From contig NZ_GL877879.1 of the NCBI RefSeq assembly GCF_000194155.1, positions 1,358,767 to 1,422,766 on the forward strand: 64,000 nucleotides of DNA, given 5' to 3'. The translations under genes and the position numbers were made by a program. Below the pieces are notes generated by a model. The model was not told the origin of the DNA and made no database searches. It worked only from the letters and a program-made list of their open reading frames with translations. Every line of letters starts with the position of its first letter. Positions within the stretch are counted from its first letter, which is position 1. Positions 3,690 through 8,883 of the stretch are shown here, one piece after another. The DNA is from Saccharopolyspora spinosa NRRL 18395. Its GTDB lineage: Bacteria; Actinomycetota; Actinomycetes; Mycobacteriales; Pseudonocardiaceae.

Positions 3690-4283
3690 TCACTTGGGGT
3701 GGCCGACCTCGTAAACGCCCTTCTCGTTCTTGACCGTCACCGTGACGGTCTTGGTCGCCGTGTCGACGCTGACCTTGCAGTCGAAGCGCTGACCGACCGC
3801 CACCGGCTGCCCGCTCGGGCAGCTGACGTTCCCGACCCCCCGCAGCCCGTAGGAGCCTTTCAGGGTCTGTGTGACGCCCTTCTCCACGCTGGCCGCGTCG
3901 AACACCGGCCGCATGAACCAGCCCGGCGTGACGAACCCGAGCACCAGCACCACGCCGACCACGAGGACCGCACCGATCCCGCCGAGCACCCACGGCAGCG
4001 CCGAGCGCTTCTTCTTCGGCCGTTCGAACTGGTCGAACCGCCCGAAGCCGCCCGGTGCCGGGTCCTGCCCGCCCTGCGGGTACTGCGGCTGGCCGTAGCC
4101 GTAAGGCTGCTGCTGGGGCGGTTGCGGCGGCCGCTGGGGTGGTTGCCGCGGCGCGAAACCACCCGGCTGCGGATAGCCCGGCGCCGCAGGCCGCATCCCA
4201 GGCCCCTGGGGTTGCGGCCCCCACTGGGGATAGCCCCCCGGCGGGCCGTAGTTCTGATATGTGCAGAACTTACTCTCGACCAT
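3690..4283 (-). CDS. Single-pass membrane protein with DUF4333 extracytoplasmic domain
   Basis: A Gly/Pro/Gln-rich cytoplasmic N-terminus (about 1-95) is followed by a basic stop (RPKKKRSALPW), one hydrophobic helix (LGGIGAVLVVGVVLVLGFV) and an outside domain with two Cys. That domain ends in the DUF4333 pattern (TQTLKGSYGLRG...VSCPSG...FDCKVSVD). ATG 4283 is chosen because AGGA sits nine bases upstream and the protein then begins MVESKFCTYQNYG. Function is unknown. By position it corresponds to the membrane protein Rv2091c next to helY in mycobacteria, so the DNA from 4370 to about 8838 looks like an insertion between the two. Confidence 0.75.
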   Translation of the reverse strand: MVESKFCTYQNYGPPGGYPQWGPQPQGPGMRPAAPGYPQPGGFAPRQPPQRPPQPPQQQPYGYGQPQYPQGGQDPAPGGFGRFDQFERPKKKRSALPWVLGGIGAVLVVGVVLVLGFVTPGWFMRPVFDAASVEKGVTQTLKGSYGLRGVGNVSCPSGQPVAVGQRFDCKVSVDTATKTVTVTVKNEKGVYEVGHPK

Positions 4284-4369
4284 GTGGCGAAGTCCTAAGG
4301 GCATCGGCACCGTCTGGTAAGTGCCTGGGCGGGTCATGTTCCGAACTCGGGGTTTGTCCGTAGAGTCCT

Positions 4370-4438
4370 CGGGCGTGTCTCGGAGCAAGATACAGCCCCA
4401 CACCTGAAATGATGTGGGGCTGTCTTGTTCTTCCACGG
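4370..4438. repeat. Direct repeat A, copy 1 (69 bp, contains a strong hairpin)
   Basis: This segment recurs at 6125-6192 with a single G missing. Its centre is an inverted repeat (ACAGCCCCAC ... GTGGGGCTGT) extended by AAGA/TCTT-like flanks, so either strand can form a long stem. The two copies bracket the borosin genes. It could act as a terminator or as the boundary of a mobilised cassette. Confidence 0.9.
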
Positions 4439-4725
4439 TTTACGTGGTCTGTCTGATAGCCCTCATGGAGGTCGGCGGGAAGAGGACTGCGCTCCGCCCG
4501 GACCGCAGCACACATGCGCGGCCACTTCCCGGAGACCGGCCGGGGTCTGGGGGCGACACTGAGCGCCCCAGGTTTTCACCATTAGCCGCGGACGACTTCG
4601 CTCTTTTTCCTCACCTGATCAGGGGGTTCGCTCTGCGAGCTGGCGCGCAGTGATTTTTAGTGCTTGTGGGCGTATCGGGCGACTGCGGTCGCCGAGGAAT
4701 TCGGACAAGGTGCGGAGGTCGCAGC

Positions 4726-5811
4726 ATGTCGGCGGGGTCGCTGGTCGTGGTCGGTACAGGCATTAGAGGCATCGGGCAGTTGACCTACGAGGCTGCGGGG
4801 TGGATCGAGCAGGCCGACCATGTCGCGTACTGCCTGTCCGACCCTGTGACCGAGGTGTGGATTCAAGAACACAGCAGGTCCTCTGAGGATCTGCAGGTGT
4901 TCTACGGCAACGACAAGCCGCGTAGGGAAACCTATGCGCAGATGGTGGACGCGCTCGTCAAACCGGTACGCGGTGGTCTGACGGTGTGCGGGGTGTTCTA
5001 CGGACATCCCGGTGTGTTCGCCTATCCGGGCCACGAAGCGATCAGGGTGCTGCGGGCCGAAGGCGTTCCCGCCATGATGATGCCCGGCGTGTCGGCATTG
5101 GATTCCTTGTTCGCCGACCTGGGCGTGGACCCAGCCACGATGGGCTGTCAGGAGGTCGAGGCCACCGATCTGTTGGTGCGCAACCGAACTCTGTTGACCG
5201 AGTCACACGTGGTGATCTGGCAGGTGGGCTGTGTGGGCGATCTCGGCTTCCGCTTCGACGGCATCGACAATTCCCGCAATCGCCCGATGCTTGTCGAGTA
5301 TCTGGAGAAGTTTTACCCGCCGGAGCATCAGGTCACCCACTACCACGCGGCCCATTACCCGGTGTGTGGTCCGCTGATCCACACCGTCGCGTTGCGCGAC
5401 CTGCGTGACGAACCTCTGGACTCTGCGTCCACTCTGTACGTGCCGCCAGTTGTCGCGCCGGGCTATGACGACGACATGGCCGAACGACTGGGGATGGCCG
5501 GGAACCGGCCGCAGTCCGTCCAGTTGACCGGGACGGGAGTTCCGGACCACTATCTGCCCACTCGCTATCCCAACGCGCTTGCCACATATCTGGCTCAGCT
5601 GGCGTCGGACCCGTCCCTGCTGAGCGAGTACCTGCGTGACCCGCAGACGATGGTCACGCAGGTGCCGGACCTGGCCGACGACGAGCGCGCGGCGCTGTTG
5701 TCCGGCGAGTCGGGGTCGATCTGGATGGCAATGAAGGACACCACCACGGTGGAGCCAACCGATACTCCCTCCGGTGCACCGGAGGGACGGGGCGAGACCA
5801 CGCTCCCGTGA
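4726..5811 (+). CDS. Borosin-type peptide backbone alpha-N-methyltransferase with C-terminal substrate-binding helices
   Basis: This 361-residue SAM-dependent enzyme belongs to the tetrapyrrole-methylase fold. From memory it closely follows fungal OphMA (omphalotin). Shared features are the VGTGIRGIGQLT loop (9-20), YCLSDP (35-40), VFYGHPGVF (90-98), MPGVSALDSLFADL (119-132), CQEVEATD (141-148) and QVGCVGDL (166-173). The OphMA catalytic/SAM residues Tyr66, Arg72, Tyr76 and Tyr98 align with Tyr60, Arg66, Tyr70 and Tyr92; OphMA Tyr63 is Gln57 here. Residues about 294-337 match the helical recognition domain before the omphalotin core (VPDLADDERAALLSGESG). The tail after it is Thr/Pro/Gly/Glu-rich and is not a hydrophobic core. 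GGAGG lies eight bases before ATG 4726. A short peptide gene follows 29 bp downstream. Confidence 0.9.
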   Translation: MSAGSLVVVGTGIRGIGQLTYEAAGWIEQADHVAYCLSDPVTEVWIQEHSRSSEDLQVFYGNDKPRRETYAQMVDALVKPVRGGLTVCGVFYGHPGVFAYPGHEAIRVLRAEGVPAMMMPGVSALDSLFADLGVDPATMGCQEVEATDLLVRNRTLLTESHVVIWQVGCVGDLGFRFDGIDNSRNRPMLVEYLEKFYPPEHQVTHYHAAHYPVCGPLIHTVALRDLRDEPLDSASTLYVPPVVAPGYDDDMAERLGMAGNRPQSVQLTGTGVPDHYLPTRYPNALATYLAQLASDPSLLSEYLRDPQTMVTQVPDLADDERAALLSGESGSIWMAMKDTTTVEPTDTPSGAPEGRGETTLP

Positions 5812-5840
5812 TTGCAACCGCACGACAGGAGGACCACGAC

Positions 5841-6023
5841 ATGTCCACAGCTACTCGCACCAAGAGCCAGCCAACGACCGCGAAACCGAACCTACGCCAC
5901 GCCGTGATGGACCCCACCCGCTGCGCCACCCGCACCGCCCCTGAGCGCCCAACGACACACGTCGTCTACCACGTGATTGTCCCCCATTTCATCGTCCCGG
6001 AGTGCTCCGCCGTTGGCCGCTAA
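5841..6023 (+). CDS. Candidate borosin precursor peptide, 60 residues
   Basis: A short ORF starts at ATG 5841 with AGGAGG eight bases upstream, only 29 bp after the methyltransferase stop. The N-terminal 40 residues are hydrophilic and rich in Thr, Arg and Pro (MSTATRTKSQPTTAKPNLRH). The C-terminus turns strongly hydrophobic and beta-branched: VVYHVIVPHFIVP, then ECSAVGR. That resembles N-methylated borosin cores such as WVIVVGVIGVIG of omphalotin. The peptide has no recognisable recognition helices of its own; those sit on the enzyme. A strong hairpin follows at once. The ORF looks genuine from its RBS, spacing and composition shift; that it is the methylated substrate is inference. Confidence 0.7.
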   Translation: MSTATRTKSQPTTAKPNLRHAVMDPTRCATRTAPERPTTHVVYHVIVPHFIVPECSAVGR

Positions 6024-6029
6024 GAGATA

Positions 6030-6060
6030 GGTTGTGGGCGCCGGTGCGGAGCCCACAACC
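6030..6060 (+). terminator. Perfect 10-bp stem hairpin after the borosin peptide gene
   Basis: GGTTGTGGGC (6030-6039) pairs exactly with GCCCACAACC (6051-6060) across an 11-nt loop, starting seven bases after the peptide stop. There is no T-tract, as is usual in high-GC actinobacteria. It most likely ends the two-gene borosin transcript. Confidence 0.7.
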
Positions 6061-6080
6061 ACCCTGTCGACGCAGGCACT

Positions 6081-6126
6081 CGGCCGCCCGAATCGGCCGG
6101 GCGGCGGTCACACAGCGTCGGCGGCG
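6081..6126. repeat. Direct repeat B, copy 1: duplicate of the helY 3' end plus terminator
   Basis: These 46 bp match 8838-8883 with two mismatches. The second copy comprises the last codons, stop codon and terminator hairpin of helY. The copy here is detached from any helicase gene. A duplicated gene end is the usual footprint of site-specific integration at a gene 3' end, so this may be a distal attachment site of an element lying between the copies. Confidence 0.8.
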
Positions 6127-6192
6127 GGCGTGTCTCGGAGCAAGATACAGCCCCACACCTGAAATGATGTGGGCTGTCTTGTTCTTCCACGG
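6125..6192. repeat. Direct repeat A, copy 2 (68 bp)
   Basis: Matches 4370-4438 except for one missing G in the hairpin. It abuts repeat B copy 1, overlapping it by two bases, so the right end of the borosin cassette and the left end of the next block share a junction. Confidence 0.9.
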
Positions 6193-6205
6193 CACTTCGG
6201 GGTGC

Positions 6206-6378
6206 CCCCGGCACGGGTGGGACCGGTTGCGGCGCGATGCCGCAACCGGTCCCATACGGCCATCACGCTGAACCGTCCCGTGCCGGGGAGCTGGGGTGGA
6301 TGGTCAGACGACGTCGGGGGGCTTCCGCCGCCTGACCATCCGTGTACCTGGCCAACCTGTCGGTAACGGCGCAGGTAC
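6206..6378. repeat. Cluster of perfect inverted repeats in a non-coding stretch
   Basis: Four dyads follow one another. An outer 12-bp stem (CCCCGGCACGGG 6206-6217 with 6277-6288) encloses a perfect 15-bp hairpin (6219-6233 with 6239-6253, 5-nt loop). Then come a 10-bp stem (GGATGGTCAG 6298-6307 with 6332-6341) and a 7-bp stem (GTACCTG 6344-6350 with 6372-6378). The stretch from 6194 to 6561 has no convincing gene. It could be a structured RNA, a two-way terminator or a replication/transfer-type DNA structure; I cannot tell which. Confidence 0.75.
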
Positions 6379-6561
6379 GGAGGGCCGTCCCCACCGAGTC
6401 AGAGGGAGAGGTTGCAGCGCGGCTAGAAGGCGGCGCACCATCCCGGGATGCCGTGCCAGCGCTTCCCGGTCATCGACCGGCAAACCGGACTCGATTAGTG
6501 GCAGGTGCCGGGTTTCCTCGAGGGTGAGCGCGCTGCTGAGGTACCTGCGGTGGGCGATCCT

Positions 6562-6753
6562 TCATGCACAGGGCCGCTCACAGGATCTAATAATCACGGT
6601 GTATTCCCTCGCCATCCACGCGGGGCCGTGGGCGTCGCGCTCGTGCTGCCCCACGACATCCGGGTCCTCGTGTTTGAACATGCACCGGTCTGCGGCGCAC
6701 TTCCACATCTCGGGGAAATCGGAAGAAAACGTCTCTGCTGGCAACTCGTCCAC
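6562..6753 (-). CDS. Small putative C2H2 zinc-finger-like protein
   Basis: A 63-residue ORF from GTG 6753 contains Cys19-x4-Cys24-x12-His37-x4-His42 within WKCAADRCMFKHEDPD, a plausible C2H2 zinc site. The composition is protein-like: acidic N-terminus, hydrophobic FPEMW, then the finger. No clear ribosome site precedes the GTG, so the exact start is uncertain. Function is unknown. Small zinc-finger proteins are common in actinophages and integrative elements, which suits this accessory region. Confidence 0.45.
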   Translation of the reverse strand: MDELPAETFSSDFPEMWKCAADRCMFKHEDPDVVGQHERDAHGPAWMAREYTVIIRSCERPCA

Positions 6754-6795
6754 CTTTATTCATCATCTCACGGCTCATGCGGTAGAGTCTTTGAT

Positions 6796-6826
6796 GGTCC
6801 CCGGCAGATAACCGCTACCGGGGCCT
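6796..6826 (-). terminator. Hairpin downstream of the 7216-6834 gene pair
   Basis: CCCCGG (6799-6804) pairs with CCGGGG (6818-6823), with partial extension outward. It lies just past the stop at 6834 of a minus-strand gene pair and probably ends that transcript. The stem is short, so confidence is modest. Confidence 0.35.
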
Positions 6827-6833
6827 TTCAGGC

Positions 6834-7064
6834 TCAAGGGTGCCGAAGGCACTTACAGCACTGCTCGATACTCTGGGAAGCCTCCCTGTTCACAACCGGG
6901 GACCCGCATAGCGAGAAACGGAAAACGCGTCCGCCTAACGTCACTTCGCGTGTGTCCGGTCCGACGCGGTGCCGCAGTGCGCGGAAAATCCCCGGATACC
7001 ATTTGTGGTCGTCCGGCTCCAGCTCCCCAGCCACAGAAAACCACGCGCTCACGGCTGGCCTCAT
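6834..7064 (-). CDS. Hypothetical protein, 76 residues
   Basis: The ATG at 7064 overlaps the stop of the upstream small ORF as ATGA, which supports real coupled translation. The sequence begins MRPAVSAWFSVAGELEPDDH and has a mixed charged/aromatic composition followed by a Cys pair near the end (EQCCKC). I do not recognise a family. The last 25 residues may be read-through into degraded DNA. Confidence 0.4.
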   Translation of the reverse strand: MRPAVSAWFSVAGELEPDDHKWYPGIFRALRHRVGPDTREVTLGGRVFRFSLCGSPVVNREASQSIEQCCKCLRHP

Positions 7065-7216
7065 GGCAGCTCTAGCTTTCGGAGCCTATCGACTATCTCA
7101 GTCAGAGTCTCAGCTTGCTTGTTCAAATCATCCTGAGATACCGCCGAATCATCGATGATCCGGTAAGCGACTCGGATGAGATCCCAGGAGATTTGTTCCA
7201 GAGCTGCATTGACCAC
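7061..7216 (-). CDS. Hypothetical helical protein, 51 residues
   Basis: From a GTG at 7216 the frame encodes an amphipathic protein with WDLIRVAYRIIDD and LTEIVDRLRKLELP, predicted to form two helices. The start is uncertain because the same frame stays open to 7351. The stop overlaps the next ATG. It is divergent from the XRE/TPR regulator; such small partners next to XRE regulators are common in Streptomyces-type loci. No function can be given. Confidence 0.4.
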   Translation of the reverse strand: MVNAALEQISWDLIRVAYRIIDDSAVSQDDLNKQAETLTEIVDRLRKLELP

Positions 7217-7425
7217 AGCAACACCTGCCCAGTGCCGTCCATTTGGGTGAGCGGACCCGGCCCGGTCGAGGGGAAGACAAACCAGTTTGCTGCTGCCCCG
7301 TCGGATGCAGCTCCCAGGTTTTCTGCGAACCGGGCCCGCGCTGGCTTCCACAATGATCAGATGCCGTTATCCTGGGAAGTGAATAAGTGTTGACAGGGGT
7401 TTGCAGAGGGGCAGCCTTGACCCAT

Positions 7426-8538
7426 ATGGGTGCCACACTCCGGGCGGCACGCGAAGGTGCTGGAGTCAGTCTCCGCGAGATGTCGCAGCGAGTTCACATG
7501 GTTTCCTCATATTTGTCTCTGCTTGAGACCGGCAAGCGACCGGTACTCCACAAGCACATAAAGGCGTACGAGCGTGCGCTAGGCGTGAAAGGACTGGCAG
7601 ACGACATGGACCGAAGATCACTACTCGTGGCGCTAGCTGCAACTGCGACAGGCGAACCGCTGGCACGACTCCTTGACGGACTGGTAGCCCCAGCGGAATC
7701 CGGGCAAGTTGGCAGGATCGAAGTCGAGGCCGTTCGGGAGGCCGCCCGGCACCACTCAGCGATGGATCTCCAGTATGGCGGCAAGGTCGCCGCAGGTGTT
7801 GCTGGCGAGTCCCTGAGGTGGGCCGTAAGCCTCTTAGATCGACCCATGACATCCGAAACCCGCAAGGCCCTTTCGAGTGCCGTGGCGTCGCTCTCGGACA
7901 GGGTTGCGTGGTCCTTCCACGATTCCGGGCTTAAGTACCAGACTCGGCGTCTGTCTGAGTTGGCGATCCGTACAAGCAGCGAGGGAAACGATCCGACCCT
8001 TACCGCACATGTTCGGCTGAACGTTGCCGCGTTCATGGAGACGATGCCGCGAGACGCGGCGGCGATGCTTACGGGAATCCCCCAAGAGAGCGGGGTCCAT
8101 CCGTTGGAGCGTGCCAATGTGGCGGCTGGAAGAGCCCTCCACCTTGGCAACGCGGGGGAGATCCGAGAAGCCAAGAACCTGCTAGGTATGGCTGAAGATC
8201 TGATCGGCAAGGATCACCCGGAAGGGTTGCCCACGTGGGCAGGATTCCTGTCGGAACCGCACCTGTGCGCGATACTGGGCGACTCGTACAAAGCGATCGG
8301 AGAGTACGAAAAGGCTGCCTCGTGCTGCCAGCAAGCCCTCAGGGGATTCGGCCCGGAGAGGGGCCGTGGGAGGGTCACGGTCATGGTCCGTCTCGGCCTG
8401 GTCCGTCTAGCGCAGGGCCGGGTCGCGGATGCACGAGAGCAGGCAGAAGCGGCCCGGCGGGCAATGACCACAGTCAACTCTGTACGGGGCAAGGAAAATT
8501 TGGACAAGCTGACAAGGCGACTCGATGTGCTGACGTAG
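7426..8538 (+). CDS. XRE-family transcriptional regulator with C-terminal TPR-like repeats
   Basis: A 370-residue protein from ATG 7426 has an N-terminal helix-turn-helix (about 1-50; LREMSQRVHMVSSYLSLLE). A long helical region with TPR-like units follows (LHLGNAGEIREAKNLLG, YEKAASCCQQALRGF, LAQGRVADAREQAEAA). This layout is that of Streptomyces-type XRE/TPR regulators that sense peptides or small ligands. TTG 7417 is an alternative start, with AGAGGGG five bases before it. GC appears lower than in helY next door. The 3' 132 bp are overlapped antisense by the gene at 8407-8742. Confidence 0.75.
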   Translation: MGATLRAAREGAGVSLREMSQRVHMVSSYLSLLETGKRPVLHKHIKAYERALGVKGLADDMDRRSLLVALAATATGEPLARLLDGLVAPAESGQVGRIEVEAVREAARHHSAMDLQYGGKVAAGVAGESLRWAVSLLDRPMTSETRKALSSAVASLSDRVAWSFHDSGLKYQTRRLSELAIRTSSEGNDPTLTAHVRLNVAAFMETMPRDAAAMLTGIPQESGVHPLERANVAAGRALHLGNAGEIREAKNLLGMAEDLIGKDHPEGLPTWAGFLSEPHLCAILGDSYKAIGEYEKAASCCQQALRGFGPERGRGRVTVMVRLGLVRLAQGRVADAREQAEAARRAMTTVNSVRGKENLDKLTRRLDVLT

Positions 8539-8742
8539 CTCATGATTCAGTGCCCGCAGTTCGGGCAGCCAGCTCCCACACCATGCCAGCGCGTGGATCT
8601 CCAACGCGTCGAGCGCTGTTTGCCCCCAGTCTGTGAGCACGTGTCCGCACTCGGGCCCGCCGATCGTGCACACCCACCAGCGCCGACCGTCGACTAGCAC
8701 CACGTCTAGCGAGAACTTCCCGGTTGCTACTGGATTGACCAT
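8407..8742 (-). CDS. Hypothetical protein, 111 residues, overlapping the XRE gene tail-to-tail
   Basis: ATG 8742 has GAGG eight bases upstream and opens MVNPVATGKFSLDVVLVDG. The core is rich in Trp, Cys and His (RRWWVCTIGGPECGHVLTDW, HALAWCGSW). The last 44 codons overlap the 3' end of the convergent regulator by 132 bp, which is unusual; either the original stop was lost or the overlap is real. No family recognised. It is transcribed towards the regulator from a promoter near the helY terminator. Confidence 0.5.
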   Translation of the reverse strand: MVNPVATGKFSLDVVLVDGRRWWVCTIGGPECGHVLTDWGQTALDALEIHALAWCGSWLPELRALNHELRQHIESPCQLVQIFLAPYRVDCGHCPPGRFCLLSCIRDPALR

Positions 8743-8837
8743 GCGCACCGCCTCAAAACAGACAACCGAGAATAACGGGCACAACGGTCAGCGCTTCCAC
8801 GAACGGGACCAGACGGTCGAGTCCAACCACAACAGCC

Positions 8838-8883
8838 CGGCCGCCCGAATCGGCCGGGCGGCGGTCACACGGCGCCGGCGGCG
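8838..8883 (-). terminator. helY 3' end and terminator hairpin (repeat B, copy 2)
   Basis: Just past the helY stop (8865-8867), CCGCCCG and CGGGCGG pair around a short AT-containing loop to give a GC-rich terminator. The whole 46-bp block recurs at 6081-6126. This copy is continuous with the helicase gene, so it is the original or restored gene end. Confidence 0.8.

Follow-up and report, generated by a model that had tools for sequence, protein, structure and literature searches.

A probable two-gene split borosin locus in Saccharopolyspora spinosa, with the recognition domain on the methyltransferase and a core-like stretch on a separate short peptide

Which protein of a borosin pathway carries the recognition domain (BBD), and which carries the core? 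This question is raised by two adjacent genes in the window, the 64,000-nucleotide stretch of Saccharopolyspora spinosa NRRL 18395 analysed here. A sequence-only reading had assigned the recognition domain to a methyltransferase and a core-like sequence to a separate peptide, placing the enzyme open reading frame (ORF) at 4726-5811 and a 60-residue ORF 29 bp downstream behind a strong AGGAGG. Both the coordinates and the AGGAGG were confirmed. We consider it likely that the two genes form a genuine split borosin system, probably a working one, in which the BBD-bearing enzyme is predicted to methylate the peptide in trans. The enzyme features on which this rests are as follows.

4726-5811, plus strand: borosin-type peptide alpha-N-methyltransferase with fused BBD/clasp, 361 aa (PDB and Pfam matches, catalytic residues, homologues)
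5515-5742, plus strand: BBD/clasp region of the enzyme, about residues 264-339 (OphMA match of residues 263-361)
5746-5808, plus strand: enzyme tail, residues 341-361, Thr/Pro/Gly/Glu-rich (homologues end just after AMKDTT)

By family, the product of 4726-5811 is a borosin-type methyltransferase, and its activity is predicted. Its ATG (4726) is preceded by GGAGG at 4714-4718. When the enzyme was compared with the PDB using phmmer, the best matches were the fungal backbone N-methyltransferases dbOphM (6mjf, E=1.8e-79) and OphMA (5n0o, E=5e-77), with SonM next (2.7e-46). Pfam reported TP_methylase at 3.9e-19; an ordinary tetrapyrrole methylase was rejected because the OphMA-like PDB matches are far stronger than this. 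A three-way alignment equated window residues Y60, R66, Y70 and Y92 with Y58, R67, Y71 and Y93 of SonM, and F98 and W165 with F99 and W166, all six SonM residues being named in the consulted part of PMC8429565. The window enzyme combines two marks of borosin methyltransferases, a TP-methylase-type domain homologous to OphMA and SonM and catalytic residues equal to those of SonM, and the earlier description of an OphMA-like enzyme with Tyr60, Arg66, Tyr70 and Tyr92 is borne out. The recognition domain was likewise correctly placed on the enzyme. dbOphM and OphMA each gave a second matched stretch over the clasp region, from window residue 265 or 264 to 339, and residues 263-361 alone matched OphMA 304-377 at E=3e-8, against only E=0.14 for the SonA BBD. 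Single-sequence structure prediction of the enzyme gave no usable model (mean pLDDT 35.3, pTM 0.22); residues 282-326 alone reached a pLDDT of about 50-63, mostly helical, which is given no evidential weight.

The putative substrate is encoded immediately downstream on the same strand.

5827-5832, plus strand: AGGAGG ribosome-binding site of the peptide gene (sequence; AAGGAGGA precedes the ATG in both relatives)
5841-6023, plus strand: precursor peptide gene, 60 aa, no BBD recognised (conserved partner ORF)
5892-5918, plus strand: peptide leader motif LRHAVMDPT (LR[HY]AVMD.T in 3/3 loci of this kind)
5961-5999, plus strand: core-like stretch VVYHVIVPHFIVP, peptide residues 41-53, putative methylation target (composition; VVEIAEVEVVE and VVEVAEVEVVE of the relatives are placed alike)

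The AGGAGG lies within the 29-bp gap between the enzyme ORF and the peptide ATG at 5841. The peptide had been described as ending in VVYHVIVPHFIVP, but the seven residues ECSAVGR follow it, so that the hydrophobic stretch lies near the C-terminus and not at it. As a check on chance, the 216 six-frame window ORFs of 40-80 aa were scanned for a 13-mer with at least 9 VILMFWY residues within the last 25 residues; two qualified, one of them being the peptide ORF itself in a longer GTG form. G+C content by codon position in the peptide ORF is 0.63, 0.55 and 0.77. A profile of the peptide that includes the window sequence itself finds the window copy in the S. spinosa genome, the next match having E=0.51. 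Compared with the PDB at E up to 10, the window peptide gave a chance-level match only, and none to SonA. Type IV borosins have the BBD on the precursor beside a stand-alone enzyme of ~263 aa; here the BBD is on a 361-aa enzyme and the peptide is without a SonA match. A type IV locus was thus rejected, since the peptide has no BBD match.

How widely such a pair occurs was examined at several scales. Genome contigs, one genome for each of 84,980 species, were scanned with exact short patterns from one protein, a design that reaches close relatives only, and yielded one relative, in Streptomyces olivoreticuli (L002). At E≤1e-20 in sampled genomes, enzyme matches were found in 1 of 61 relatives (S. 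spinosa itself) and in none of 21 congeners. They were found in 2 of 394 genomes of the class and 4 of 346 of the family, with S. spinosa counted in each, and in 9 of 392 genomes of the genus of S. olivoreticuli, that genome counted. Second draws from this genus (362 genomes) and from the class (364) gave matches only in genomes already found and appear to overlap largely with the first draws, so they are not counted as independent; the second genus draw missed G1134, which the first had returned. Viral contigs scanned with an alignment of the enzyme and phage records scanned with the enzyme held no relative, and tblastn of plasmid records with the peptide of G1060 gave no match at E up to 10.

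Beyond the window, the same kind of enzyme together with an AVMD peptide was found at two loci only: L002 and a second locus in the same genus (L024, genome G1060). Each of their enzymes keeps the BBD and shares 61% identity with that of the window. They are also 91% identical to each other over the enzyme, and because of this closeness the three loci amount in effect to two independent points. The remaining loci were of other kinds: stand-alone methyltransferases (about 260 aa), large enzymes extended by a further C-terminal region, one case of three methyltransferase domains at a single locus, and more distant enzymes. By eye, the ORF upstream of three stand-alone methyltransferases (L007, L008 and L009) resembles a BBD-plus-core precursor. 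In G1134 (L025, 8182-11605), a 621-aa open frame holds two tandem borosin-type methyltransferase domains and a third methyltransferase ORF lies downstream; no BBD or precursor was identified at this locus. A plasmid of Bradyrhizobium sp. 155 (L085, 2480-5774) carries two methyltransferases, each with a match to the window enzyme or its homologue, separated by a dioxygenase and an 80-aa hypothetical protein and adjoined by a prolyl oligopeptidase gene; the prolyl oligopeptidase OphP is reported to cyclise omphalotins (PMC12235650). On plasmid pla_2 of Burkholderia arboris (L006, 5926-8301), whose record bears no gene annotation, an enzyme of the methyltransferase-BBD type is followed by an ORF containing a run of TTEV-type repeats and then the Val-rich AVAVVEVLAEDDD.

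The peptide is kept with the enzyme in both relatives, as the proposal of a core-like stretch on a separate peptide would lead one to expect; absence or lack of conservation of the small ORF at homologous loci had been named as grounds for abandoning that proposal. L002 and L024 each have a short same-strand ORF downstream of the enzyme, behind AAGGAGGA and an ATG, of 45 and 54 residues. Each encodes PDLRYAVMDVT and then a Val-rich, Val/Glu-alternating C-terminal end, VVEIAEVEVVEDAD or VVEVAEVEVVEEAG. A scan for LR.AV[ML][DE] over all loci collected at that point had hits only in the window, in L002 and L024, and in further cuts covering these same places. When the window peptide was compared by unfiltered phmmer with 3579 ORFs taken from 16 loci (omitting the cut from S. 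spinosa itself, L001, duplicate cuts of the same places and the weak match L013), the peptides of the relatives ranked first at E=0.005 and 0.052; an unrelated third match had E=0.17, and the peptide matches are thus statistically modest. MAFFT alignment of the peptides gave only 35-38% identity, with gaps. When ORFs of at least 60 aa were compared across the three neighbourhoods at E≤1e-8, only the enzyme-gene frames were common to all. Overall, nothing apart from the pair was found to be shared by the three neighbourhoods, neither a protease nor a transporter; L002 and the window alone share two further common-looking families, far from the pair.

Within the peptide, the two ends behave differently. 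Of 40 aligned codons in L002 and L024, 29 are the same, 3 differ synonymously and 8 non-synonymously, and none of the non-synonymous differences falls in the first 11 codons (PDLRYAVMDVT). The enzymes of these loci differ by 30 non-synonymous and 37 synonymous changes in 351 codons. With 8 non-synonymous against 3 synonymous differences, purifying selection on the C-terminal part of the peptide is not evident. The C-termini also differ in make-up, being acidic and Val-rich in the relatives and aromatic with His and Pro in the window; the products of the window and of its relatives would therefore differ. At 45 and 54 codons, the relatives' peptide genes fall below the 60-aa minimum of the composition-based gene caller and have no codon-composition support from it; in L002 the caller listed an opposite-strand ORF over the place of the peptide gene. 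This outcome is weighed on neither side.

Phylogenetic analysis of 22 rows grouped the window, L002 and L024 at 99/99. A set of 12 rows, in which this group is joined by other BBD-bearing enzymes (the two from fungi and four large ones from bacteria) and by the triple-methyltransferase locus, stood apart from the type IV rows and SonM with moderate support of 83/81, which is below the mark for strong support and carries a long-branch warning.

In S. spinosa, the pair lies on an apparent insertion.

4252-8821, no strand assigned: island with the pair and an HTH/TPR gene (absent in 9/10 congeners inspected; GC)
4370-4438, plus strand: direct repeat R, left copy (right copy 6125-6192, 98.6%)
6081-6126, plus strand: direct repeat S (96% copy of the 3' end of the Ski2-like helicase gene, 8838-8883)

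G+C content is 0.627 in the island and 0.694 elsewhere in the window. The island lies between the genes for the Ski2-like helicase and the DUF4333 protein. The helicase gene was found in S. spinosa and in all 21 congeners searched, and the insertion site was compared in 10 of these. In nine, the helicase and DUF4333 genes adjoin, with at most 641 nt between the matches; at the nearest congener locus (L067), 65 bp separate the counterparts of window positions 4251 and 8822. The tenth congener, G021, carries another insert there, of 3.3 kb, which includes an ORF that is HTH-like by eye. Based on the absence from congeners, the G021 insert, the low GC and the repeats R and S, the pair appears to be a self-contained cassette that was inserted at a hot spot. 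The repeats surround two adjacent cassettes in the order R, enzyme and peptide, S, R, HTH/TPR gene, S, which would fit successive integration of two elements at one spot. No other strong match to repeat R was found elsewhere in the genome.

Could the enzyme instead be a fused borosin that methylates its own C-terminal tail, the peptide being incidental? The most similar fungal OphMA-like enzymes are fused (fusion as described in the consulted part of PMC8429565), and the window enzyme does have a tail of 21 residues past the shared AMKDTT. However, type I borosins have a hydrophobic core at this position and the tail is Thr/Pro/Gly/Glu-rich. Both homologues stop soon after AMKDTT (6 residues in L002, 2 in L024), so that the tail is essentially missing from them and is not a conserved core; the sequence-only reading had judged it an implausible core, and we agree. 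The downstream peptide, on the other hand, is kept in the relatives, and we regard self-methylation as very unlikely.

Another view would make the peptide a partner of the enzyme in some other capacity, for instance accessory or regulatory, with the true substrate encoded elsewhere. It is the leader-like motif that is conserved, and the C-terminus varies strongly between the window and the relatives, as might be expected of such a partner. Nevertheless, precursors of this sort normally pair a conserved leader with a variable hydrophobic C-terminus, and no other candidate was found common to the three loci; a non-core role is thus improbable. Finally, the window copy might be decaying cargo of a mobile island, its genes intact and the pair no longer working. 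The divergence of the window peptide's C-terminus from those of the relatives and the location of the pair on an insert missing from the site in the congeners inspected could be taken in this sense, but both frames are intact with good ribosome-binding sites, and the catalytic residues and the leader motif are kept. We give this explanation the least credence of all. The reading that we prefer is therefore that of a working enzyme and its separate peptide substrate.

The division between enzyme and peptide had been put forward as a different architecture, a claim that did not survive comparison with the literature. According to the Fig. 1 legend of Xu et al. 2024 (PMC11395268), Class 2 borosins have the methyltransferase and BBD in one protein and the core on another. 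The window likewise has methyltransferase and BBD on one protein, and it has a conserved separate peptide whose core-like C-terminal part would correspond to the methylated core. The division proposed for the window is thus already described there, and the locus probably belongs to a described class. A comparable arrangement is seen in B. arboris: the enzyme there, alignable with residues 1-337 of the window enzyme, is also followed by a separate ORF, which contains a core-like repeat; L006 is probably another case of a borosin with a separate substrate. Its substrate-like ORF, with 323 codons between stops, is far larger than that of the window, and its enzyme has a further C-terminal extension. 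The fused fungal borosins of type I (OphMA, dbOphMA) are the closest solved relatives over catalytic domain and clasp, and OphMA has the same catalytic residues as the window enzyme. In contrast to the window, where the core-like stretch is on another peptide, type I enzymes carry the core on their own C-terminus. Type IV borosins (Shewanella SonM/SonA; Streptomyces sp. NRRL S-118) resemble the window in having a separate short precursor beside the enzyme, and SonM has the same catalytic residues. They differ in that the precursor bears the BBD, the enzyme having 263 aa (as given in the consulted part of PMC8429565), whereas the window has the BBD on the enzyme and none recognised in the peptide.

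Any novelty may lie in the small size of the system, with two genes and a short conserved leader. The consulted text of PMC11395268 does not assign numbered types to Class 2, and a 45-60 aa LR.AVMD substrate may already have a place among types V-X. No LR.AVMD precursor is described in the parts searched of PMC11395268, PMC8429565, PMC11285071, PMC12710340, PMC9233826, PMC13097080 and PMC11048544. There is a fair chance that the window locus is its own subtype within the described class. A fuller version of this idea, which we hold only tentatively and think somewhat doubtful, unites the three loci in a distinct subtype whose entire pathway is a pair of genes, for a methyltransferase-BBD enzyme and a 45-60 residue peptide, that travel together as a cassette. 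In this subtype, the short leader LR[HY]AVMDxT would replace the covalent tether of fused borosins, and the pair would have arisen when a fused ancestor was split within the linker that joined BBD and core. Such a fission is a possibility, but the tree, although it places the window with BBD-bearing enzymes (83/81), cannot show the order of events.

Based on these comparisons, we predict the following pathway. The enzyme, with its catalytic domain and its own BBD, would form a clasped dimer like that of OphMA; characterised borosin methyltransferases act as dimers, and in SonM/SonA the BBD gives most of the binding (both from the consulted part of PMC8429565). Since the BBD is already on the enzyme, the peptide must be recruited in another way. 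LR[HY]AVMDxT is the most conserved part of the peptide and for this reason is taken as the putative docking segment, so the 60-residue peptide may bind the enzyme in trans through the short LRHAVMDPT. Docking would place VVYHVIVPHFIVP in the active site, where its backbone amides may be methylated one after another from SAM, presumably in the direction given for borosin cores in the same part of PMC8429565, from the N- to the C-terminal side. No obvious maturation protease was seen among the eight neighbouring ORFs within 14 kb, which by Pfam encode a DeoR-type regulator, a 5'-3' exonuclease, a GNAT acetyltransferase, a DUF4333 protein, an HTH/TPR protein, a Ski2-like helicase, a YegS-like protein and TatC.

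In conclusion, should methylation of the peptide in trans prove true, the BBD of a borosin need not sit on the substrate, and a short leader motif would be what recruits a very small peptide to an enzyme with its own clasp. Such a pair would offer a convenient means of producing peptides with methylated backbones, and it would be well suited to studying how tethered and untethered borosins interconverted.
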